Made by a program: the position numbers and the translations under genes | Notes under the pieces: generated by a model | Database searches by the model: none | Seen by the model: the letters and a program-made list of their open reading frames with translations, nothing else | What the model was told of the DNA's origin: nothing | In this document: in pieces, positions 40,102 through 54,440 of the stretch | Layout of the letters: each line of letters opens with the position of its first letter | Numbering within the stretch: position 1 is the stretch's first letter | From: an uncultured Clostridia bacterium | GTDB taxonomy: Bacteria; Bacillota; Clostridia; Christensenellales; Borkfalkiaceae | Direction of reading: 5' to 3' | Assembly: GCA_944330115.1 (NCBI GenBank) | Contig: CALVIN010000003.1 | Span: forward strand, 186,001 to 250,000 | DNA: 64,000 bases

Positions 40102-41040
40102 TTACTGCTCGTTATTGTTGTTATTGGTGCTGTTGGTATTATTGGTGCCCTCGGCCTCTTTACCTGCACCGGAGTTACCGAGATAGGTGCCGAGGTATAT
40201 CTGCTTTTTGCCGCGGGGCGCAGAGCTGCGGGGAGCCGAACTGCGGGGTGCGGAGCTGCGGGGAGGACGGGAGGAACGGTCGCCGCGGTCGCGCCTGTCG
40301 CCGTCGCGCCTGTCGCGGTTAAACTTTCTTTCGCCGTACTTTTTCTCGCCGCGGTCGTCGCGCTTGTCGCGGTTGAACTGCCTGCCGCGGTTGAACTTTT
40401 CTTTGCGCTCGAAGGGAACTTCGTTTTTAGGTATTATTACCACCCTGCGCGTGGGCTCCTTGCCCTCGGAAACGGTGGTAACTTCCTCGTTGGAGGCGAG
40501 CACGGAGTGCACCACGCGGCGCTCGTAGGGGCTCATGGGCTCCAAAGCAACGCGCCTCTTCTTTTCTACGGCCTTTGCCGCCTTGGCGATGGCCACGTTT
40601 TTGAGCTTCTCCTCGCGCTGGGCGCGGTAGTTTTCGCAATCGACCGAAACCCTGCGGTATTCGTCCCTGCCGATGTTGGCAACGGCGCCCGCAAGGCACT
40701 GAATGGCGTCGAGCACCTCGCCCCTGCGGCCTATGACTGCCGAGGTATTGGTGGTTTCGATTTTGATCTCTATCTTTTCGCCGTCGGATACCACTTCGGT
40801 CACTGCGGTTATATTTAAAATTCCCATGAGGCCGTCGATAAAGTTTACGGCGCGCTCGCTGTCGGTAGCCTTTTTGACCACCTTTACCTTTGCCTTTACC
40901 GAGCCGAAGAGTTTGCGCTTGCCCTCTTCCAAAACCTCTATCTCCGCCTCGTCCGCGGTGATTCCGAGGGCTTTAAGCCCCTCTGCGGTGGCCTCTTCCA
41001 CCGTTTTCCCGGTAAAAATGTTTTCCATATTTTCTTCCAT
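40102..41040 (-). CDS. jag: KhpB/Jag RNA-binding protein
   Basis: 312 aa. Jag-N domain (FTGKTVEEATAEGLKALGITADEAEIEVLEEGKRKLFG), KH domain (about 85-150: TTNTSAVIGRRGEVLDAIQCL), then R3H (PMSPYERRVVHSVLASNEEVTTVSEGKEPTRRVVI). The C-terminal 100 residues are an Arg/Asp/Gly-rich tail with RSSAP repeats, longer than usual and typical of disordered RNA-binding regions. KhpB binds many mRNAs with KhpA and affects elongation and division. Follows yidC in the usual order. Confidence 0.93.
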   Translation of the reverse strand: MEENMENIFTGKTVEEATAEGLKALGITADEAEIEVLEEGKRKLFGSVKAKVKVVKKATDSERAVNFIDGLMGILNITAVTEVVSDGEKIEIKIETTNTSAVIGRRGEVLDAIQCLAGAVANIGRDEYRRVSVDCENYRAQREEKLKNVAIAKAAKAVEKKRRVALEPMSPYERRVVHSVLASNEEVTTVSEGKEPTRRVVIIPKNEVPFERKEKFNRGRQFNRDKRDDRGEKKYGERKFNRDRRDGDRRDRGDRSSRPPRSSAPRSSAPRSSAPRGKKQIYLGTYLGNSGAGKEAEGTNNTNSTNNNNNEQ

Positions 41041-41070: not shown

Positions 41071-42342
41071 TCACTTTTTAGCCTTTTTTTCCTTTACCGG
41101 CTTTCTTAAATACCTGTCGAGCTCCTGTCTCTCCTCAAGTTTTTTGAACTTGGCGTCGAGCACCTTGTTCACTATGAGCGAGGTGAGCAGGCTGTATGTG
41201 GTGTTTACTATCATGTATATAGAGAACGCCGCGCTGTAGAAGAACGAGAAGAAACCGTAGATGACGGGCATCAGAATGAGCATCCACTTGTTTGTGCGCT
41301 TGCCGCTGCCGTCGACCGTGCCCAGCTCGTTCATGCCCTTCTGCATGCGCATGGATATGAACTGCGAGAGGAACATCATGCCTATCGCAAGCACTATCAG
41401 CACGAAATAGCCGTTGTAGGTATTCTTTTCGCTTGTTAAGTTTGCCGTTACTTCGTTATACGAATCTTCGTAGTTTGCAAGGTTGGTTGCCCTGTTCAGA
41501 GTGGATACGAATTTATCGAAATCGGGCACTTCCTTGTTGAGCATAGAGTCGGGATACCAGATGCTGCCTACCCATATAAAGCCCTGCTTGTTTTCGCGGT
41601 AGTAGGCGGCCGATGCGGCGCGCGCGTCCTCGGCGATATAGTTCTTTATTATGATGAACATATCGTTTTCCGTCTCGACGTCTGCCGTGAGCTCTTCATA
41701 GGTGGGATCGTTGTATACGTCCCCCCTGCGGTGGTCGTTGTAATAGTTCTCGAACCTGCCGAAATCTACCTGATATACCGTCTGATTTTCGTAGTCGGTA
41801 TCCTCGATGAGGAAGCCGTAATTTTCGTTGCTGTCATAGGGTGCGTTTTCGTCGACGCACACATACTGCTCGACCACGTCGTTATAGGCCTTCACCATGC
41901 CGCGGTAGAGCTCTAAATTTGCATACTGAGAATAGGTAGAGAACTGGCTGAACACTACCATGAATATTACAAGCGATATAACGGTGGGCAGGCATATGCC
42001 CATCATGGAGTAGCCGTTCTTTTTATACAGCTCCATGACCTTCTGGTTATACATCTGCTTGTCGTTGGCGTACTGCTTTTGCAGCTTTTCCATCTGCGGG
42101 CGCATGCGCTCCATTATGAGCGACTGCTTCTTCGTCTTGTATTTTGAAAATACGTCGAGAGGCATTACTATCGTCTTTAACACGAGAGTAAATATGATTA
42201 TGCCTATGGCTGTGATCGGCACGCAGGTGATTATCGCCTGGATCACTTCGCCTATCCAGTTCAATGTTATGGGGTCGATGTCTTTAACGCCGAATTCGAA
42301 CCACGTTTGCGACAGACCGGTAAGTGTTGCCAATAAATTCAT
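41071..42342 (-). CDS. yidC: YidC/OxaA membrane insertase with large extracytoplasmic insert
   Basis: 423 aa; Firmicutes YidC proteins are usually 220-290. The insertase helices are present (IGIIIFTLVLKTIVMPLDVFSKYKTKKQ; MMGICLPTVISLVIFMVVFSQFS; YFVLIVLAIGMMFLSQFIS; WMLILMPVIYGFFSFFYSAAF), with Lys56 where the groove Arg normally sits. Residues about 145-250 form an unusual charged insert before the GFIWVGSIWYPDS motif. No lipobox is seen at the N-terminus. It works with SRP/Sec or alone to insert small membrane proteins such as the ATP synthase c subunit. Confidence 0.93.
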   Translation of the reverse strand: MNLLATLTGLSQTWFEFGVKDIDPITLNWIGEVIQAIITCVPITAIGIIIFTLVLKTIVMPLDVFSKYKTKKQSLIMERMRPQMEKLQKQYANDKQMYNQKVMELYKKNGYSMMGICLPTVISLVIFMVVFSQFSTYSQYANLELYRGMVKAYNDVVEQYVCVDENAPYDSNENYGFLIEDTDYENQTVYQVDFGRFENYYNDHRRGDVYNDPTYEELTADVETENDMFIIIKNYIAEDARAASAAYYRENKQGFIWVGSIWYPDSMLNKEVPDFDKFVSTLNRATNLANYEDSYNEVTANLTSEKNTYNGYFVLIVLAIGMMFLSQFISMRMQKGMNELGTVDGSGKRTNKWMLILMPVIYGFFSFFYSAAFSIYMIVNTTYSLLTSLIVNKVLDAKFKKLEERQELDRYLRKPVKEKKAKK

Positions 42343-42363: not shown

Positions 42364-42654
42364 TTAGAGCACCCACCTCACCTTAAAAAAATTTTCAGGA
42401 ACGGGATCGTACCCTCCCTTCGTTAGGGGGTTGCAGCGCAGTATGCGCCATGAGCCTAAAAGTATGCCTACTATCACCCCGTGGTTGTTTATGGCGCGCA
42501 GCATATACTCTGAGCATGTGGGCGTGAACATGCACGTCCCGTGCGAAAAATAGCGCTGATAGAAGATTATAAGGCGCATGCATGCCGTCTTTATAAAGGG
42601 TTTGAATACCGTGCGCCTCAGCTTTTTATATACCGCCCTCAAACGCGCCATCAC
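42364..42654 (-). CDS. yidD: Membrane protein insertion efficiency factor YidD
   Basis: 96 aa. Family signature [28 protein letters not shown] with the conserved cysteines, then [18 protein letters not shown]. Amphipathic, membrane-associated helper of YidC. ATGA overlap with the rnpA stop codon. Confidence 0.96.
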
Positions 42655-42965
42655 TTCATCCTCTTAAAACAGCTTAAAAGCGAGCGCTCGAAGGCCGCAA
42701 GCGAATACTCCTCGCTCACCTTGGGAAGCAGCGCTATGCTGCACGCAAAGGGCGCGCGCTCGCAAGTTAAAAAGAATGCGCGGCGCACCAGCCTCTTTAT
42801 TCTGTTGCGCTTTACCGCCTTGCCGTGCTTTTTTGAAACGATGACCGCCATTTTAAGCTCGTCCGACGGCATATATACCGCCGTGAGCGCGTTTGAATAC
42901 GCCCTTTTGCCGCGTTTGAACAGCTTTTGTATGTCGGTGTTTTTTTTAAGACGAAGATATTTCAT
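42651..42965 (-). CDS. rnpA: RNase P protein component
   Basis: 104 aa. The RNR motif ([21 protein letters not shown]) binds RNase P RNA and pre-tRNA leader; the N-terminal [16 protein letters not shown] is typical. Between rpmH and yidD as in most bacteria. The RNase P RNA gene itself is not in the window. Confidence 0.97.
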
Positions 42966-43121: not shown

Positions 43122-43256
43122 TTATGCGGAGAGATGCTTCCTGCCCTTGTTTCTTCTTCTCTTCAGAACCTTCCTGCCGGCATTTGACGCCATGCGCTTT
43201 CTGAAACCGTGAACCTTGCTTCTCTGTCTTTTCTTGGGCTGATAAGTCCTTTTCAT
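43122..43256 (-). CDS. rpmH: Ribosomal protein L34
   Basis: 44 aa: [20 protein letters not shown]..., then [17 protein letters not shown], the invariant L34 sequence. First gene of the rpmH-rnpA-yidD-yidC-jag operon. In most bacteria dnaA is the neighbour on the other side; here it is dnaN. Confidence 0.98.
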
Positions 43257-43411
43257 TTCTTTTTCTCCGTAAATTTTATTTTTTAAATAACTACACAGCA
43301 CGGACTTGCCGCCCGTGCCGTATTTTTTTATTGAATTTCTTTATATTTATGTATAGCAGCGGGCGACTTACATAAAAAAGCCGCACATTTAGTCCCACTA
43401 TGCTATTTTTT

Positions 43412-43441
43412 ATTATACAATCAAATTTAAAGTTTAGTCAA
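43412..43441 (-). promoter_or_regulatory. Predicted promoter of the rpmH operon
   Basis: Minus-strand TTGACT, 18-bp spacer, TATAAT; leader about 150 nt before rpmH. Confidence 0.7.
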
Positions 43442-43469
43442 GCGTTATTGCCCCGAATTTGCCGTTAAA

Positions 43470-44573
43470 TCAGCCGTTTGACGACGTTCTTACCGGCAGA
43501 ATGAGGTATAATACGTCTTTATTTTCGGCATTGCAGCAGATGAAGGGCTGCACGCCGCTGTTGAAGGAGAGCGTTACGGTGTCCTCTTCGAGCGCGCCTA
43601 TCGCCTCGGTGATGAACTTCGAGTTCATGGCGATCCTCACGTCCTTGCCCTCCACTTCGGCCTTTACCGGCTCCTGCACGTTGCCTATCTCGGAGTTGGA
43701 GGATATCTCTATCCTGCCCGCGGAAATATCGAAGATAATAAGGCTGTTTTTATCGGAGCGGACGAGAATGGCCGCCCTCTCTATGCTGTTTTTGAGCGCG
43801 TTTTTATCCACAGTGACCACCGTGGAGAAGGTGCGGGGTATAATGTTTTCCTTCTTTATAAATTCGCCGCCGTACAGCCTGGAGGTGAGCACGGTGTCGT
43901 CGACGGAGACGAGTATCATGCCCCTCGCCACGAACACCTCGGTCTCGCCTTCGGCGGGGATCATCTTCTCTATCTCGTTGAGCGTGCGCGCCGGGCAGAT
44001 TATATCCAGATCGGCGGTGGCCGAAGTAACGGGCGCCGTGATGGTCGCCAGCCTGAAGCCGTCGAGCGCGGTGACGCACACCTTGCCGTCGGAGATCAGA
44101 AACTGGCAGCCCTTCAGATTGGGGCGCGAATCGTCGGTGGCACAACAAAATGAAGTGGCATTTATGACTTTTTTGAGGTCTTCAGCCTTCATTTTGAAGG
44201 AATTTTCGCTTATATCCGTGCTTATCTTGGGGAAGTCCTCGGCGGAGAGCGTCTGCAGCTCCGACTGGGAGTCGGCATATATTATCTCCATGCGGTTGCC
44301 GTCTACCGAGAGCGTTATCTGCACGTCCTCGAGCTTTTTGATGAAGTCGGAAAAATATCTGCCGGGGACGCAGGTCTCGCCCTCCTCATATACCTCCGCC
44401 TTTACAGTCTTCTGAATGGATATTTCGCCGTCGGTGGCGGAAAGGGTGAGCCCGTCGTTGTGCGCGGTAAGTTTGATGCACTCCAAAAGGGGCACGGTGG
44501 TGCGCACGGCGCAGGCCTTTACCACCTTTAACACGGCCTCCGACAGGTTGATTCCTTCGCAAACAACTTTCAT
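43470..44573 (-). CDS. dnaN: DNA polymerase III beta sliding clamp
   Basis: 367 aa, three-domain clamp: MKVVCEGINLSEAVLKVVKACAVRTTVPLLECIKL.., the central FSSNSEIGN-like motif here IEISSNSEIGNVQEPV, and the C-terminal hydrophobic-pocket end YLILPVRT. Forms the ring that holds polymerase on DNA. It points towards rpmH on the minus strand with no dnaA between, which is not the usual dnaA-dnaN operon. Confidence 0.97.
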   Translation of the reverse strand: MKVVCEGINLSEAVLKVVKACAVRTTVPLLECIKLTAHNDGLTLSATDGEISIQKTVKAEVYEEGETCVPGRYFSDFIKKLEDVQITLSVDGNRMEIIYADSQSELQTLSAEDFPKISTDISENSFKMKAEDLKKVINATSFCCATDDSRPNLKGCQFLISDGKVCVTALDGFRLATITAPVTSATADLDIICPARTLNEIEKMIPAEGETEVFVARGMILVSVDDTVLTSRLYGGEFIKKENIIPRTFSTVVTVDKNALKNSIERAAILVRSDKNSLIIFDISAGRIEISSNSEIGNVQEPVKAEVEGKDVRIAMNSKFITEAIGALEEDTVTLSFNSGVQPFICCNAENKDVLYLILPVRTSSNG

Positions 44574-44978
44574 ATCGTCCCTCTCACTTTCAGTTAATTA
44601 TATTAAAAGATTTATATAGTAATAGTATTATTAGGGGGCTGTGGAAATATGGATAACTCCGTTTATCCACTCCCCAAAACTGCGTTTACAGCAATATAAT
44701 AGCAAATGCGGCGGCAAAAAGCAAGTAAATGAGCTTTTTTTAAAGGTGTTAATAACTTAAAATTTTGGGTGGATAACCGTGTAGATAACTTGTTGATAAA
44801 CTTTTGCCGCGGTGGATAAAATTTACCCTCTCAACCTGCCGTTTTTTTGAAAAAATTTGTGAAAAAAACCTTGATTAAGCAAAATTTTTGAGGTTATCCA
44901 CATTTCAATAGCCGTGTTGAAAAAGTTTTATACAATTTCACCTGCGGCCGTTACGGCGCAAAAAATGGCCGTTTTGGG
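44574..44978. other. Origin-type intergenic region with DnaA boxes
   Basis: AT-rich, gene-free. Perfect DnaA box TTATCCACA at 44894-44902. One-mismatch boxes are TTATCCACT 44663-44671 and, on the other strand, GGTGGATAA at 44768-44776 and 44811-44819. Related TAGATAAC and TTGATAAA words lie near them. It separates minus-strand dnaN from plus-strand rsmG, exactly where the strand bias of the genes switches. Candidate oriC or part of it. Confidence 0.7.
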
Positions 44979-45007
44979 TTGAAAAGGCGGCAAAAAAGTG
45001 GTATAAT
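44979..45007 (+). promoter_or_regulatory. Predicted promoter of rsmG-ypsA
   Basis: TTGAAA, 17-bp spacer, TATAAT (45002-45007). Confidence 0.65.
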
Positions 45008-45061
45008 CTTAAAGACGAAAAAATTTTTTCAACAAAGTTATCAACTTTTTGGAGCGGAAAA

Positions 45062-45739
45062 TTGCTTTTTAAGGACGATTTTACACCTCCTCCCGGAGCG
45101 GAGGAGCGGCTCAACAGATTTTACGAAGTGTTGACAGATTATAACGAGAAGGTAAACTTAACTTCCATAACCGGGCGCGAGGACTTCTTCACAAAGCACA
45201 TCTGGGACAGTGTTGCAGGGCAAAAATATTTTGCCGCGGGCGCGAACGCCGTCGAAGTAGGCTCGGGCGGGGGCTTCCCCTCCCTTCCACTCAAAATTTG
45301 CCGCTCCGACCTGAAGTTTACCCTCATCGAGAGCGTGGCAAAAAAGTGCGCCTTTTTGCGGTATGCCGCCGAGGAACTCGGGCTTTCCGACGTAAAAGTT
45401 GTAAATATGCGCGCCGAGGAGGCCGGCAGGGGCGATCTGCGCGAAAAATTCGACGTATGCTGCGCCCGCGCCGTGGCGCGGCTGAACACGCTGCTCGAAT
45501 ATTGCGCTCCGTTAGTCAAAGTCGGCGGGCTGTTCGTCGCATACAAGGGCGAGGCCGGCGAGGAGATCGAAGAGGCAAAACATGCCGAAAAGGTGCTGGG
45601 CATGCAGCTTGTTTCGGCGGAAAAATACAATTTGCCGGGCGACGCAGGCGCGCGCACGCTGGCGGTATATAAAAAAACAGCCCCCACTCCCGCAAGATAT
45701 CCGCGCGGGCAGGGCAAAGAGAGGAAACAGCCGCTGTGA
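45062..45739 (+). CDS. rsmG: 16S rRNA (guanine-527-N7) methyltransferase
   Basis: 225 aa. SAM-dependent: NAVEVGSGGGFPSLPLKI is motif I, preceded by KVNLTSITGREDFFTKHIWDS and followed by LIESVAKKCAFLRYAAEELGL. Methylates G527 of 16S rRNA. The start is TTG at 45062 with GGAGCG upstream. Normally it follows mnmG; here mnmE and mnmG are absent and it borders the origin. Confidence 0.95.
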   Translation: MLFKDDFTPPPGAEERLNRFYEVLTDYNEKVNLTSITGREDFFTKHIWDSVAGQKYFAAGANAVEVGSGGGFPSLPLKICRSDLKFTLIESVAKKCAFLRYAAEELGLSDVKVVNMRAEEAGRGDLREKFDVCCARAVARLNTLLEYCAPLVKVGGLFVAYKGEAGEEIEEAKHAEKVLGMQLVSAEKYNLPGDAGARTLAVYKKTAPTPARYPRGQGKERKQPL

Positions 45740-46188
45740 GAGAGAACGCTTGCGCCTTCACCGGGCACAGAGAACTTGGCGGCGACTTCGACGTGCAACT
45801 TTTGGAGCGCGTCGTCGAAAGGCTGGCAAAAACGGGCACCGTCACATTTTTATGCGGCATGGCGCGGGGATTCGATCTCGTTGCGGCCGAGGTTACACTT
45901 AAATTTAAGTTGAAGTATAATTTAAAACTTGTGGCGTGCGTACCTTACGAGGGGCAGGCCGACTATTTTTCTGCGTCCGACAAGGAGCGCTATGAAAATA
46001 TAATGGCTCATTGCGACGAAAAGCGCGTCTTTGCCGAAAGTTACAACAGATATTGCATGTTCGCGCGCGACAGATACATGGCTGAAAATTGCTCGGTGAT
46101 GGTGTGCTATCTCAGAAAGACTAGCGGCGGGACGTATTATACGGTAAACTGCGCCAAAAAGCTGGGCGTGAAGGTCATCGAACTGTAA
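45736..46188 (+). CDS. YpsA-like SLOG-family protein (DUF1273)
   Basis: 150 aa. Rossmann-like SLOG fold: CAFTGHRELGGDF at the N-terminus, FLCGMARGFDLVAAE (glycine-rich ligand loop), LVACVPYEGQADYFSASDKERYENI, and MVCYLRKTSGGTYYTVNCAKK. YpsA affects cell division in Bacillus; SLOG proteins are thought to bind nucleotide-like ligands. GTG start overlapping the rsmG stop by 4 bp, so the two are coupled. Confidence 0.85.
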   Translation: MRENACAFTGHRELGGDFDVQLLERVVERLAKTGTVTFLCGMARGFDLVAAEVTLKFKLKYNLKLVACVPYEGQADYFSASDKERYENIMAHCDEKRVFAESYNRYCMFARDRYMAENCSVMVCYLRKTSGGTYYTVNCAKKLGVKVIEL

Positions 46189-47498
46189 ATTTTGCCTTAT
46201 TTGCGGCATATATGCGGATATCTGCGGCATATTCAGGCAATTTTTGTAGAAATGAAGCTCCGCGGCGCGAAAAATGTTTAATGTGAAACATTTGCCATAG
46301 TTTAAGATATTTTAAGCAAAAGGGCGCCGCATAATGGCGCTTTTATTGTGCTTTTTATATTAAAAAAATGAAACTTTGTGGAGCTCAATAACGAGGTCTG
46401 ATTAGTAAATATTTGATTGCGGCGAGAAGCTTTCCCCTCGTCTCCCCTTCAGGGGAGGTGGCTTTGCCGCAGCATCGGCAAGGTACAGCCGGAAGGGTTT
46501 ATGTGATCCGCGAACTGCATTTATTATAAAACACGTTCCCTTCAGCACAAATATTGAATATTTTGCATATAGTCGGGACTTTATTTTTAAATTACTGCAA
46601 CTTTTTAAGCAAATAGCCGTCTTTCGCCTGCAACTCAATTAAAGTTAAATTTAAGTTATAGTTTTATAATTAGGCATCGTGTAATTGCCGTCAAAATGCC
46701 GGTAATTCGGCCATATATCGGGGCGTTTTAATAATTTTATGTGATTTTGCGGCTGCTGCTCCCGCCGCTTAACATAATGATCGGCCTTCCTTCATGAATG
46801 AAAATATATTTCCCTAACAATTCCTCCTCTCCTCATAACGGCCTTTGCCGTTTTAAGTCTTGAATTTACTTTTGAAGTTAAATTAAACTTATATAATGGA
46901 ACGGCTTAACACCATAAAACTGCGTATAGTGCTCAGTTTTCAACGGCGGAATTTGTGAATTTGTTAATATTGTTAATTTAATTGAGCCTAATATATGCCA
47001 AAATTATTACAAAATAGTAAATTTAATTTATCCGATTTTATCATAAATGTTCAGAAATTTTGTTGTAAAATTTCATTTTGCGCCTTAAAGGTGCTTTTTC
47101 AGGCTAATATGTGGATATCTCGGTGCATAACCGCAAATATTTACCTGATTTTTTGCTTAAAATCTGCTGATTGACCCGCATATATGGCCGATTTAATCGG
47201 AGTTTTCAACATTTCCACAGTGTTATCCACATTTGGTGAATTACTAAAATCTATTCCTTTTGAGCAGGCGCAGCGCTCTGCTTCATTCAGCCTGCATACC
47301 AACGGAATTTTATTGGCAAAAATTTAAATTGGTGCCGCAATATGCCCGATCTGACGGCAATTTTGCATATATATGAAGAAATTATAAGTATGCCGCCGGT
47401 AACTCGCCTTTAAACATACCTACTCTCTGCCGCCATGCGGGATCTGGCTGCGTAGAAAAAATAAATTGTCCTTTGCAAAATAACTATTCGTAAAATAT
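46189..47498. other. 1.3 kb intergenic region with DnaA box and repeats
   Basis: No credible gene. It contains two GCGGCATAT-type palindrome copies (about 46201-46235), a parS-like site (46275-46290), one CTCCCCTTCAGGGGAGG repeat with its GGAAGGGTTT tail (46434-46500), and a TGTGGATAT near-box (47110-47118). It also holds a perfect DnaA box TTATCCACA (47223-47231) and another palindrome copy (about 47329-47350). The rest is AT-rich. Probably part of a broad origin region. Confidence 0.6.
46275..46290. promoter_or_regulatory. parS-like site (2 mismatches)
   Basis: TGTTTAATGTGAAACA, compared with TGTTNCACGTGAAACA, the ParB-binding consensus. One of five such sites near parAB. Confidence 0.45.
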
Positions 47499-48083
47499 TT
47501 ACGCCTGCTTCTGGTCAAAGTCTGAGAGCGCATTGTTTGCTATGTCGTCGCAGATATACGTGGCGACGCCCTCGGCAATAATATTTGCCATGCGGTAGAC
47601 GATATTCAGGCGCGTTGAGGACAAAATCGAGAAGTTAAACACGGACTTTTCGGCAACGATGCCGAGAATGGATATATCCCCCACTTTGCCAAGCTTTTTG
47701 TTCGTGCCGCTCCCCGGCTTTACGCCGTGTCCTGCAATTTTGATAAGGCCGATATCGCCTGCCGCTCCGACCGCCGCATCTATGGCGATAAGCGGACTGT
47801 TCGGGTGCGTGCTTCTCACAAATTTATCGATATACCTGATCTCATGCGCTGTTATCGGCTTTTGCAGCGTGCCGTAGATGTAGCAGTTTGTGAGCCGCAG
47901 TTTTTCTTTGAGCAAAGTGCCGACCAACGGGCCGAGACTGTCACCCACCGAAAGATCGCTGCCGATGCATACAATAGCGGGAGTGGAGTGGGGCATTGTT
48001 ATCAGTTTTTTGAGCGCGATCACCGTCCCGCTCGGCGCAAGGCTGTTGTATAGGTTGAAGCAATATTCTGTATTCATCGGCAT
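47499..48083 (-). CDS. yyaC: YyaC-family sporulation protein (DUF1256)
   Basis: About 194 aa. Core motifs IVCIGSDLSVGDSLGPLVGTLLKEK, YIYGTLQKPITAHEI, IAIDAAVGAAGDIGLIKI and KPGSGTNKKLGKVGDISILG are those of the YyaC/GPR-like peptidase-fold family, made in the forespore or mother cell of endospore formers. Start uncertain: ATG at 48083 or a TTG at 48104; neither has a strong ribosome site. In Bacillus, yyaC also lies close to parAB and the origin. Confidence 0.88.
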   Translation of the reverse strand: MPMNTEYCFNLYNSLAPSGTVIALKKLITMPHSTPAIVCIGSDLSVGDSLGPLVGTLLKEKLRLTNCYIYGTLQKPITAHEIRYIDKFVRSTHPNSPLIAIDAAVGAAGDIGLIKIAGHGVKPGSGTNKKLGKVGDISILGIVAEKSVFNFSILSSTRLNIVYRMANIIAEGVATYICDDIANNALSDFDQKQA

Positions 48084-49420
48084 TTTTACGCTAAAATACT
48101 TCAATTTTCGGCTTATTTTAATCCTCAGATTTTAAGTTTTAGCGAGGTTCTCCTTTATAAATTTTGGTATGATTTTTGCCGAAATTTTGCGTTTTTATAC
48201 CTGATTTTGTTAAGTTTTATTGATACTTATAACAAGTATGTTACTCATCTAATGCAATGTTATATATGCAAAATATGTCTGAATATGCCATATTTTGCAT
48301 AGTTATATTGTAATTTACGGTTTGATTTTTACTTAACTGTAATTTTTGCGAGTTTACGGATAGTTAGCTGCCGTTTTTGCCGCTTTCAAGCCATGTAGAT
48401 TGCATTTTTTATGTGTGCAGCCAGGTTGCAGTTATTGCGTCGTCTGCCTGCCATAATGCCGTATTTGCGGGCTGTTTTGCTCATTTATGGCGTATTTGGT
48501 CTGCTTGTATGGTCTGGGGCTTAGCTCTCAATTTTCACGCTTCCTGGCATTTTAAGCCGTTATTCTTTAATGCAAGCTCTGCCTTTTATCTGGTCATTTC
48601 AGGCCTTTCAGGCAGAATTATATGCCGTTGCGTGTTTTTTATGGGTATTTTATTCTGTATGAGCGGCTCGTATCGTTCCCGGGTTCACTATGGCTTTTAT
48701 GGAAAGATCCAGATAGGCGAAGTTCATCACTTTTATATGTTATGCCTCGGAATATGGGTATATTTGGTGCATTGTCCGTCATCCGGCAATTTTGCTTTGT
48801 ATTATATATCCGTTTTGAGGTAGTGGAGGGGGAGGTTGTCAACAATTTCGTTGTTGATATGTGGATAACTTTTTAACATTTATACCGTTGAATTGTCAAC
48901 AACTCGGGCTTTTCGGGGTTGTTTTGCACATAACTTTTAGCAGTTTTCAAAAAAGTTATCCACATTTTTGTATCGCTTTAACTGTTGTTTTATTCGTCCT
49001 CGTAAGACTTAATTTTTCTTTGCGCCACATAAAATTGCTGGCGCAAAACGCATTTAATACATAAATTTTGTGTCTGCGCCCATAGATTTTTTTAATTTTA
49101 TTCTGCTGCCGGATTTGAGTCTATTTGCCGGATCACTTCGCATTTTTTATAAAATACTGTCAAAATTCAAAAACTTTATCCACAATTATACAATTGTTTT
49201 GGTTAGTTTATCAACAATTCAACCTGATGCCTGCTAACTGCTGCGCTACATACCTTGTTCTATCCTGCTCAGATAGATGGGGTGGAGGGGGAGGAATAAG
49301 GTTATGCTTGCCTGCACTTGTTTTATATTCGTTTTAACTATGTTGTAATCGGATAAAATTGCGTCTGTAACCGGGCCTCTGTTCCATTTATCAGCGTCGA
49401 GGAAGATTTTTTGCGTTTTG

Positions 49421-49436
49421 TGTTTCACGTGGAACA
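49421..49436. promoter_or_regulatory. parS site
   Basis: TGTTTCACGTGGAACA, one mismatch to the ParB-binding consensus TGTTTCACGTGAAACA. Confidence 0.8.
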
Positions 49437-49462
49437 TTTCAAAGCGAAAAAAATCTGGAAAA

Positions 49463-49478
49463 TGTTTCCCGTGAAACA
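49463..49478. promoter_or_regulatory. parS site
   Basis: TGTTTCCCGTGAAACA, one mismatch to consensus, 26 bp after the previous site, so a closely spaced pair. Confidence 0.8.
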
Positions 49479-50453: not shown

Positions 50454-50593
50454 AAGGGAGTTATTGCGGCGCATTTTGCGCCCATTAAACCGCCTGGCGC
50501 AAAGCTAAATCTTCTGCGGGCAGAGCAAGAGAGCGCTGCGCCAAGCCAAATAATGCAAAATTTTTGGAAGAATTCTTCCCAAAGGAGCTTAAT

Positions 50594-52579
50594 TTGAGTA
50601 AGAAAAGCAAAATTATCATGTGGGTGATCATTGCGCTGCTCGTGATTGCGGTCATCGTGGTGGTCATCGTCACCAGTCTCGACAGAGGTACTCAGCTCAA
50701 TGATCTCACGAAATTTGATAAGTACGTCGAGAACTACAGCTACGCCCAAAAGAATGACGGCGAAGTGGTGGTGGAGGGGCAAAATGTCGCGCTCGATACT
50801 GACGGTGACGGCAGCTTTGAAACGACTGTGCCCGCAAGCGAGGTGATCACGCGCGTTGAAATAAATCAGTATGCGCTCACCGGCTACGCTGCGAGCGGCA
50901 CGGTATATTCGCTCTACGGCGCGTCGCTCTACGGTTCCGAGGCGCTCAGCGAAAACGGCATAGTTGCCCGCTGGATGAACTATGGCGTACAGATCGAATA
51001 CGCCAACCCCAACTCGGGCAGCTATTGGTCGTCGATAATAACCGTCGGCGGGCTGGTGCTGCTGTGCGTGGTGTTCTGGCTGATCATCCGCTCCACCGCG
51101 GGCGGCACGGGGCGCACGATGTCGTTTGCAAAGAGCAAGGCGCGGATATCCACTAACATAAAGGTGCGCTTCACCGATGTGGCGGGCGCCGAGGAAGAAA
51201 AGCTGGAGCTTGCCGAAGTAGTTGAGTTCTTAAAGCAGCCCAAAAAGTTCTCCGACCTGGGCGCAAGGATACCTAAGGGCGTGCTGCTCGTAGGCCCTCC
51301 CGGAACGGGTAAAACGCTGTTTGCAAAGGCAGTCGCCGGCGAAGCGGGCGTACCCTTCTTCTCGGTATCCGGTTCCGACTTCGTCGAGATGTATGTAGGC
51401 GTGGGTGCATCGCGTGTGCGCGACCTCTTCGATATGGCAAAGAAAAACCAGCCCTGCATAATCTTCGTAGACGAGATAGACGCGGTCGGCAGGCACAGGG
51501 GCGCAGGTCTCGGCGGCGGCAACGACGAGCGCGAGCAGACGCTCAACCAGATACTCGTTCAGATGGACGGCTTCGAATCTAACGAGGGCGTCATCGTAAT
51601 GGCGGCGACCAACCGCGCAGATATACTCGACCCCGCGCTGATGCGTCCGGGCAGGTTTGACAGACAGATTTACGTAAATTTACCCGACGTACGCGGCAGG
51701 GAGCAGATACTCAAAGTGCATGCCCGCAACAAACCGCTCTCGCCCGACGTCAACTTCAAGACCATTGCAAGAATTACGAGCGGCTTTTCGGGTGCAGACC
51801 TTGCCAACCTTTTGAACGAGGCCGCAATACTTGCCGCAAGGGCAAACAAGAAGTTTATCGGCAATCAGGAGCTCTATGAGGGCGTAAATAAGGTGCTCAT
51901 GGGTCCCCAGAAGAAGAGCAGGATAGTCACCGAGAGCGACAAGAGGATAACCGCCTATCACGAGGCCGGCCACGCCATCGTCGCCCGCAAGTGCAAGCAC
52001 TGCGATCCCGTACAGGAAGTTTCGATAATTCCCCGCGGCAACGCGGCCGGCTACACCATGACCCGCCCCGACAACGATGATTCGCATATGTCGCGCGAGA
52101 AGATAAAGGACTTTATCTGCATGGCACTCGGCGGCAGAGCGGCGGAGGAGCTTGTTATAAAGGATATTACCACGGGCGCGTCGAACGACTTGGAGCGCGT
52201 TACCGAAATGGCTAAAAAGATGGTGACCGAATGGGGTATGTCGGAAAAGCTGGGCCTTATGACCTACGGCAGCAACTCCCAGACGGTGTTCCTCGGCAAG
52301 GATATGGAGACGCACAATACCTACAGCGAAGAGACCGCAAAGCTCATCGACGAGGAGATGCACTCCATAATCAACACCGCGCACGACCGCGCTGTGAATA
52401 TCCTCACTGAAAACCGCGCCGTGCTCGACAACATGGCGAGGGTGCTCATCGAAAAGGAGACCATCTACGCAGAGGAAGTTGACCTTCTGATGGAGGGCAA
52501 GAGCTACACCGAAGTTATTGATTTCATGAACGAGCAGGATTCTTCGAGAGCGGAAAATCCATTTAAGAGATACGAGTGA
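50594..52579 (+). CDS. ftsH: ATP-dependent zinc metalloprotease FtsH
   Basis: About 661 aa. Two membrane helices ([41 protein letters not shown]) flank an extracytoplasmic domain. Then AAA+ domain: Walker A GPPGTGKT, Walker [30 protein letters not shown]. Protease domain: zinc motif HEAGH. It degrades misfolded membrane proteins and regulators. Start taken as TTG at 50594 because AAAGGAG precedes it; a TTG at 50564 has none. First gene right of the origin segment. Confidence 0.96.
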
Positions 52580-52597: not shown

Positions 52598-52613
52598 TGT
52601 TTCACATGAAACA
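52598..52613. promoter_or_regulatory. parS site between ftsH and parA
   Basis: TGTTTCACATGAAACA, one mismatch to consensus and itself a perfect palindrome around CATG. Located 28 bp before parA. Confidence 0.8.
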
Positions 52614-52640: not shown

Positions 52641-53402
52641 ATGGCTAAAGTAGTTTCGTTTACAAACAAAAAGGGCGGCGTCGGCAAAACGACGACTGTT
52701 GTAAATATGGCTGCATACTGTGCCGACTTCGGTAAGCGCATGCTGCTCATTGACCTCGATTCGCAGGGCAATGCAACTACTGGCATGGGCTTTTCGAAGA
52801 GCGCGCTCAAAAAATCGGTATATAATGTGCTCATTGAGGACGAAAAGGTTTCGGCAAATATCCTGCCAACGCAGGTGCCGCTTTTAGACATACTTCCCGC
52901 CAACGTCGATTTGACGGGGGCGGAGGTGGAGCTTGTGTATAAGCGCAACCGCGACCGTATTTTAAAGACTGGACTCGAAGAGGTGAAGGACAAGTATGAT
53001 TACATATTTATCGACTGCCCGCCGTCGCTCGGGCTGCTCACGATAAACGCCTGGGCGGCTTCCGATTCGCTGATAATCCCGCTGCAGAGCGAGTATTACG
53101 CCCTGGAGGGCGTCAGCCAGCTGATGAACACCATATCGATGGTGAAGCAGCACCTCAACCCGCAGCTGACTATCGAGGGCGTGGTGATAACCATGTACGG
53201 CGGCAGGGCGACGGTATCAAAGCAGATCGCCGCCGAGATAAAGAAGTTCTTTAAAAATAAGTTATACGAAATAATAATACCGCGCAACGTGCGCCTTTCG
53301 GAGGCGCCCAGCCACGGTAAACCGATACTTCTGCACGATCCAAAGTGCATAGGCGCGCGTGCATATAAGGCGCTGACCGAAGAATTTTTATCAAAGCAGT
53401 AA
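52641..53402 (+). CDS. parA: Chromosome-partitioning ATPase ParA (Soj)
   Basis: 253 aa. Deviant Walker A KKGGVGKTTT (residues 9-18), switch motif LLIDLDSQGNATTG, Walker B YIFIDCPPSLG. ParA dimers bind DNA nonspecifically and drive origin segregation with ParB; in Firmicutes it also influences DnaA and sporulation. Directly upstream of parB and downstream of a parS site. Confidence 0.97.
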   Translation: MAKVVSFTNKKGGVGKTTTVVNMAAYCADFGKRMLLIDLDSQGNATTGMGFSKSALKKSVYNVLIEDEKVSANILPTQVPLLDILPANVDLTGAEVELVYKRNRDRILKTGLEEVKDKYDYIFIDCPPSLGLLTINAWAASDSLIIPLQSEYYALEGVSQLMNTISMVKQHLNPQLTIEGVVITMYGGRATVSKQIAAEIKKFFKNKLYEIIIPRNVRLSEAPSHGKPILLHDPKCIGARAYKALTEEFLSKQ

Positions 53403-53525: not shown

Positions 53526-54440
53526 ATGGCAAAAGGATTAGGTAAGGGGCTCGAGGCGCTGTTCCAAGACACAAACGAGGCTTTTGAGCATATATACGAA
53601 AGCGGAAAGCCGTTTGAATACACCGAAGAGGAGCGCAAGAATGCGCAGGATATGCCGCTCGACAAAATAAAGGCAAACCCCAATCAGCCGCGAAAGAACT
53701 TCGACGAGCAGGCGCTTAAAGAGCTTGCCGATTCGATAAAGAAGCACGGCGTGATAATGCCAATCGTCGTGAACGATAACAACGACGGCACCTATATGAT
53801 AATTGCGGGCGAGCGCCGTTTCAGGGCGTCGAAACTTGCCGGCAACACGACGATCCCGGTAATTATCAGGCGCTACAACGAGCGGGAGATAAAGGAGATA
53901 TCCCTTATCGAGAACTTGCAGCGCGAGGACCTCAACCCGATAGAGGCCGCCACGGCGATGAAGCAGCTCATGACCGACTATAAGCTGACGCAGGACGAGC
54001 TGGCTGAGCGCATCGGCAAATCGCGCCCCGCAGTTGCAAATACGTTGCGCCTTCTGACGCTTGCGCCCGAAGTTATAATGATGGTTTCGGAGGGCAAGCT
54101 CTCCGCTGGCCATGCAAGGACGCTCGTCCCGCTCTCGCCCGAGGACCAGGTGACGTTCGCAAAGGACGTTGTAAAGAACGCCTCGTCGGTGCGCGAGCTC
54201 GAAAAGAAGGTGCGCGCCTATAACATGCCTCCGGAGATGCAGGAGGAGCGCAAAAAGAAGAAGCGTGCGCTCGCCTCAATCGAACTCAAAGATTTGGTCG
54301 ACAGAATGCGCTTCACCTTCCGCACAAAGGTCAGCCTGATCGGCAACGACAAGAAGGGCAGGATATACATAGACTATTATTCGCGCGACGATCTCGACAG
54401 GATCTCCGAGATACTCGACATTGTCGATAAACAGAAGTAA
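53526..54440 (+). CDS. parB: Chromosome-partitioning protein ParB (Spo0J)
   Basis: 304 aa. N-terminal CTPase/ParBc domain (MPLDKIKANPNQPRKNFDEQALKELADSI..; CTP motif AGERRFRASK; IEENLQRE-like IENLQREDLNPIEAA), central HTH (LTQDELAERIGKSRPAVANTLRLL), and a C-terminal dimerisation domain. It loads as a clamp at parS and spreads. Five parS-like sites lie within about 8 kb. AAGGAG before the ATG. Confidence 0.97.
   Translation: MAKGLGKGLEALFQDTNEAFEHIYESGKPFEYTEEERKNAQDMPLDKIKANPNQPRKNFDEQALKELADSIKKHGVIMPIVVNDNNDGTYMIIAGERRFRASKLAGNTTIPVIIRRYNEREIKEISLIENLQREDLNPIEAATAMKQLMTDYKLTQDELAERIGKSRPAVANTLRLLTLAPEVIMMVSEGKLSAGHARTLVPLSPEDQVTFAKDVVKNASSVRELEKKVRAYNMPPEMQEERKKKKRALASIELKDLVDRMRFTFRTKVSLIGNDKKGRIYIDYYSRDDLDRISEILDIVDKQK

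Follow-up and report, generated by a model that had tools for sequence, protein, structure and literature searches.

Gene content of the dnaN locus

The window analyzed here is a stretch of 64,000 nucleotides (G000:C3:186001-250000) from the 265-kb contig C3 of a Clostridia genome, G000. The assembly is a draft of 1,765,568 bases in 15 contigs, with a completeness of 95.6%. G000 is kin to Candidatus Coproplasma: judged by DnaN, its closest named relative is Candidatus Coproplasma stercoravium (92% identity), and identity to the DnaN of named Borkfalkia species is 54 to 57%. NCBI taxonomy places Borkfalkia in Christensenellales and Coproplasma in Eubacteriales incertae sedis.

With angle brackets giving the direction of transcription, the genes around dnaN are arranged as <jag <yidC <yidD <rnpA <rpmH <dnaN, gap, rsmG> DUF1273> <yyaC, gap, ftsH> parA> parB> (Table 1). 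DUF1273 is the label that we presume to fit the small protein encoded after rsmG. A preliminary description of the window had placed dnaN on the minus strand beside rpmH, and matches to protein family models confirmed this. It had also stated that the 64 kb encode no DnaA-like protein and lack recF, mnmG, mnmE, gyrB, and gyrA. These absences held when we searched the window by tblastn with the genome's own proteins: DnaA gave a best E value of 0.21, RecF and GyrB gave no match at all, and the missing genes were located elsewhere, with gyrB and gyrA on contigs C1 and C6, mnmE on C14, and recF and mnmG beside dnaA (see below).

Table 1. Features of the dnaN region (window coordinates; a point marks features without a strand)
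Feature	Position	Strand	Basis or remark
jag	40102..41040	-	protein family match
yidC	41071..42342	-	protein family match
yidD	42364..42654	-	protein family match
rnpA	42651..42965	-	protein family match
rpmH	43122..43259	-	TIGR01030
dnaN, sliding clamp; proposed origin directly upstream	43470..44573	-	TIGR00663, E 3e-83
Proposed oriC, dnaN-rsmG intergenic gap, 34% GC	44574..45061	.	DnaA boxes
Putative basal unwinding module (DnaA box, degenerate second box, C-rich patch, six DnaA-trios)	44616..44657	-	trios at 44616-44633, directed at dnaN
rsmG, divergent from dnaN across proposed origin	45062..45739	+	protein family match
Small protein, DUF1273 label	45736..46188	+	weak match to NF010181
Two outlying DnaA boxes (47110, 47223)	47110..47231	.	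box scan
yyaC, spore protease family	47499..48104	-	TIGR02841
Second DnaA-box cluster: 48860, 48956, 49176, 49208	48860..49216	.	box scan; kept in relatives
parS doublet, sites 49421 and 49463, 42 bp apart	49421..49478	.	spacing kept in relatives
ftsH	50564..52579	+	
Third parS-like site, one mismatch	52598..52613	.	parS scan
parA-like ATPase, ParA superfamily	52641..53402	+	scores under curated cut-offs
parB	53526..54440	+	TIGR00180

The ParB protein scored higher against the Noc model TIGR04285 (under the cut-off of that model) than against the general ParB model. parB shared a contig with dnaN in G000 and in three further genomes (G014, G042, and G064). Elsewhere on C3, the stretches at 110 to 115 kb and 135 to 140 kb have a GC content of 37 to 40% and a strongly negative GC skew, the rest of the contig having mostly 50 to 58% GC; they are possibly mobile elements.

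DnaA boxes, DnaA-trios, and GC skew at the dnaN-rsmG gap

The preliminary description had reported DnaA boxes upstream of dnaN, and we found seven at no more than one mismatch in the 488-bp gap between dnaN and rsmG (44648, 44663, 44768, 44780, 44791, 44811, and 44894). Two hundred dinucleotide shuffles of the gap gave a mean of 0.10 boxes, and none of them reached seven. When C3 was divided into 1-kb bins, no bin but the one at this gap had three or more boxes. Across nine genomes of the family, the gap was 371 to 496 bp long and carried 5 to 13 boxes at two mismatches; at one mismatch, G064 had no box upstream of dnaN.

Read towards dnaN, the gap of G000 presents a box, a degenerate second box, five C residues, and then the trios TAA TAA TAC TAT TAC TAT. 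This arrangement is known from incC of Bacillus subtilis and oriC2 of Clostridioides difficile (PMC6669920, PMC7561715). We scored as a module any box at no more than two mismatches that was followed, after 0 to 14 nt, by at least four TAN trios. Such a module lay upstream of dnaN in 8 of the 9 family genomes, in 23 of 60 sequences overall, and in 6 of 2,400 shuffles. The remaining 37 sequences did not have it, and the family genome without a four-trio module was G145. These 60 sequences comprise the nine family genomes and 51 of 54 dnaN loci from relatives; at least L095 and G145, being equal in length, are apparently the same contig, so that the sequences are not all independent, and the survey of the yyaC-ftsH gap described below also includes both.

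The cumulative GC skew of C3 reached its minimum at 229,691, about 0.9 kb from the dnaN-rsmG gap. This contig has a weak skew, with the best two-level break at 50.9 kb, away from the proposed origin. Most of the skew argument is borne by the relative G084, in which a sharp minimum (178,357) lies inside the dnaN-rsmG gap. Contig C15 of G042 has its minimum at 30.0 kb; dnaN lies 13 kb away from this point and the parS pair of that genome 3 kb away.

A second box cluster and a parS pair between yyaC and ftsH

The gap between yyaC and ftsH in G000 held four boxes against 0.51 expected, and in 32 relatives the same gap held 128 boxes against 11.1 expected, often perfect and mostly in one orientation. 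All 32 relatives had a parS-like site there, and 27 of them had a pair of sites 30 to 60 bp apart, with a spacing that was mostly 42 to 43 bp. Only three parS-like sites at no more than one mismatch occur in the whole of C3, all of them inside the window. In B. subtilis, parAB and parS likewise lie near the origin.

Given this box excess, the constancy of the parS sites, and the position of the G042 skew minimum, the true origin might be the yyaC-ftsH element, the boxes at dnaN serving only to regulate dnaN. We consider this unlikely. The skew minimum of G084 falls 7 kb from its parS pair, the trio module sits upstream of dnaN, and three family genomes (G042, G064, and G118) retain the parS pair between yyaC and ftsH but have no box at one mismatch there.

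dnaA lies about 226 kb from dnaN

The preliminary description had suggested that dnaA and its neighbors be sought in the rest of the genome. The sole DnaA of G000 is encoded at C3:4165-5520, on the same contig as dnaN, and the midpoint of the gene lies 225,975 bp from the midpoint of the dnaN-rsmG gap. The protein is intact (451 amino acids), scores above the cut-off of TIGR00362, and contains Walker A, Walker B, and GGRDHTT motifs, all of which we take to be DnaA signatures. Its gene stands in the order <recF, dnaA> mnmG>: the upstream neighbor recF is transcribed divergently, and on the downstream side mnmG is followed by a spoIIE-like gene. The unit of recF, dnaA, and mnmG was present in all nine family genomes examined, G000 included.

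We found no sign of an origin at this site. In G000 there was no DnaA box in the recF-dnaA or dnaA-mnmG gap and no box excess over chance within 2 kb of dnaA. None of the nine family genomes had a box in the 600 bp upstream of dnaA, their recF-dnaA gaps held zero or one box at two mismatches, and a trio module upstream of dnaA was found in none of the nine. A promoter scan at dnaA was uninformative, giving nothing better than a weak match (9 of 12) on the strand of dnaA. The cumulative skew of G084 falls almost steadily and passes dnaA (35 kb) without a turn, and contig C1 of G042 shows no turn at dnaA either. With no boxes, no trios, and no skew turn, we rejected an origin at dnaA. The preliminary description had named, as a finding that would refute it, a GC-skew minimum elsewhere beside a dnaA gene; there was none at dnaA, and the minimum lay at the dnaN-rsmG gap.

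Since boxes, unwinding module, and skew all point to the dnaN-rsmG gap and none of them to dnaA, it appears that the origin stayed and dnaA left. Judged from sequence, the dnaN-rsmG gap is very probably the replication origin, dnaA having departed in the ancestor of the family, with the loss of oriC1 as a likely permissive step. Where the preliminary description had left open whether the origin was rearranged or dnaA relocated, the second would then apply: dnaA was moved and the origin kept its place at dnaN, although the genes around it were inverted.

The new neighborhood of dnaA would also be expected if the old gene had been lost and a horizontally acquired copy elsewhere had taken over, but this is highly improbable. 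In a tree of DnaA alone, the family forms one clade (support 99) inside the same 30-genome clade (support 100) that a tree of DnaN alone recovers. This agreement indicates that dnaA was inherited vertically, and we rejected horizontal replacement on the strength of the single-gene trees. In families f28, f8, f3, and f6, which have kept dnaA linked, recF lies beside dnaA as well. Less probable again is a pair of origins, at dnaN and at dnaA; the skew of C3 is mildly positive from 5 to about 60 kb, as a second origin might produce, but the lack of boxes and trios at dnaA and the unturned skew of G084 and G042 speak against it.

Distribution of the dnaA-dnaN split

dnaA and dnaN were split in all nine sampled genomes of the family, and dnaA was absent from all 54 further dnaN loci of relatives, which come from many projects. 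rsmG was divergent upstream of dnaN in 51 of these loci; in the remaining three, the sequence stops within 250 bp upstream of dnaN. G000 is an incomplete draft, but an assembly artefact or contamination, with dnaA belonging by dnaN and having been misjoined or lost, is scarcely credible when the two genes share one contig in both G000 (265 kb) and G084 (192 kb), sequence reads through on both sides of dnaN, and the layout recurs in so many loci and, on the dnaA side, throughout the family sample.

We then scored 141 of 151 genomes of the order, dropping 10 without a listed dnaA or dnaN. The two genes lay within 2.5 kb of each other in 80, 2.6 to 13 kb apart in 7, on one contig at a distance of more than 15 kb in 9, and on different contigs in 45. 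Contig breaks were rejected as the cause of the split: 35 of the 45 passed an edge test in which 2 kb of contig could be read beside one gene, or that sequence was retrieved; 10 were unsure. From other orders of the class, 121 of 132 genomes were scored (11 were left unscored). dnaA and dnaN were adjacent in 114 of them and on different contigs in 7, of which five belong to family f48 and two have dnaA within 700 bp of the contig start. The five f48 genomes, which show a split outside the order, are G174, G208, G234, G261, and G283; in G283, dnaA is at a contig start.

On a DnaA-plus-DnaN tree of 52 genomes, in which many deep forks are weak, the split or linked label needs at least 11 changes. 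The link seems to have been broken several times in the order, and an order with repeated breaks and with both linked and split sister lineages offers a natural experiment on what holds dnaA at the origin. The breaks differ among families. G012 (f13; L170 and L171) shows the opposite split: dnaN left and dnaA stayed by rpmH, with dnaN-recF gone and boxes at both places. In G018 (f18; L174 and L175), parA, parB, yyaC, rsmG, and mnmG are on the contig of dnaA and dnaN keeps rpmH, which suggests that the origin need not always go with dnaN. A beta-clamp search of G113 (f3; 97% complete) gave no DnaN match.

Possible course of the departure of dnaA

The dnaN-rsmG gap would represent the oriC2/incC half of the ancestral Firmicute origin, which was once situated between dnaA and dnaN. 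The gap still has the boxes and the DnaA-trios that DnaA is expected to melt, and DnaA would act on them in trans. dnaA, having left in the family ancestor, would now be expressed from a promoter of its own that lacks boxes. Direct autoregulation of DnaA and origin-level dosage of dnaA have probably been lost.

A likely starting point is the order found in family f28, <rsmG <mnmG <mnmE <jag <yidC <yidD <rnpA <rpmH <dnaN (boxes) <dnaA recF>. An inversion with one end between the origin and dnaA and the other between rsmG and mnmG would yield <rsmG (boxes) dnaN> rpmH> rnpA> yidD> yidC> jag>, which is exactly the dnaN side seen here. We rejected a single simple inversion as the full account: it covers the dnaN side only, and further moves are needed to account for mnmG, mnmE, and the 226-kb distance. 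A later move would have separated dnaA, recF, and mnmG.

Box counts bear on why dnaA could move. Linked genomes (n = 23) had on average 2.17 boxes per 600 bp upstream of dnaA and 2.52 upstream of dnaN. Split genomes (n = 29) averaged 2.31 upstream of dnaN, 0.41 upstream of dnaA, and 0.10 downstream of dnaA. At least two boxes upstream of dnaA were present in only 1 of 19 linked genomes inside the 30-genome clade versus 18 of 22 outside it, two outgroup rows with too little sequence upstream of dnaA having been dropped; the Fisher test (p = 7e-7) ignores relatedness, and a single event on the tree accounts for most of the contrast. Since linked members of the clade mostly lack upstream boxes, the upstream cluster was apparently lost early in the clade, before dnaA left the origin in several families. 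This loss of oriC1 was likely the permissive step: once dnaA was no longer enclosed by the origin, it could move. It would be permissive at most, as f16, f24, and f28 have no upstream boxes, yet their dnaA and dnaN are still linked. Of eight split genomes outside the clade, three still have at least two boxes upstream of dnaA.

More tentatively, the bipartite origin may have been rebuilt, the half at the dnaA promoter being replaced by a composite of same-strand boxes and two parS sites, spaced by about four helical turns, in the yyaC-ftsH gap. One element would then serve both the start of replication and centromere loading, dnaA would be free of origin structure and autoregulation, and oriC1 loss would be a general condition for initiator genes to leave the origin. 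We think this possible rather than likely; the element does suggest a physical link of segregation to the start of replication, one that can be tested.

Comparison with known origins

The linkage of dnaA and dnaN is used for finding origins and is thought to be important for initiator autoregulation and dosage. Its loss disrupts a gene order that is among the best preserved in Gram-positive bacteria, and it is a warning that origins in these gut bacteria should not be placed by the position of dnaA. Among open-licence papers, searched by titles and the starts of abstracts, we found no report of a Clostridia genome with dnaA away from the origin and nothing on dnaA in Borkfalkia or Christensenellales. 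An origin beside dnaN with a distant dnaA thus appears to be new for Clostridia; it is already known in Synechococcus elongatus.

The literature gives the Firmicute origin context as a conserved rnpA-rpmH-dnaA-dnaN (PMC7561715). G000 resembles B. subtilis and C. difficile in having boxes and DnaA-trios immediately upstream of dnaN and facing it, and in the rpmH-rnpA-yidC block that adjoins the origin (PMC6669920, PMC7561715). Those species have oriC1 upstream of dnaA and incC/oriC2 between dnaA and dnaN; G000 differs in the distance of dnaA, in lacking oriC1 upstream of dnaA, in the inverted block beside the origin, and in a parS/DnaA-box element about 4 kb off. The bipartite Firmicute layout, with dnaA between two box clusters, one of them upstream of dnaA, was not found in G000. 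Among the Mollicutes, considered as possible precedents, Mycoplasma haemofelis retains the order rpmH-dnaA-dnaN, and dnaAN is intact in phytoplasmas.

The oriC of Escherichia coli is not beside dnaN. It resembles the origin proposed here in no longer adjoining dnaA (PMC6669920); unlike that diverged origin, G000 keeps the Firmicute unwinding module beside dnaN. The origin of S. elongatus PCC 7942 lies beside dnaN, with many DnaA boxes and with dnaA 1.1 Mb away (PMC3480399, PMC7198777). G000 shares with it an origin in the intergenic region by dnaN and a dnaA elsewhere but, unlike this member of another phylum, keeps the Firmicute neighbors rpmH, rnpA, yidC, jag, and parAB, together with the trio module.
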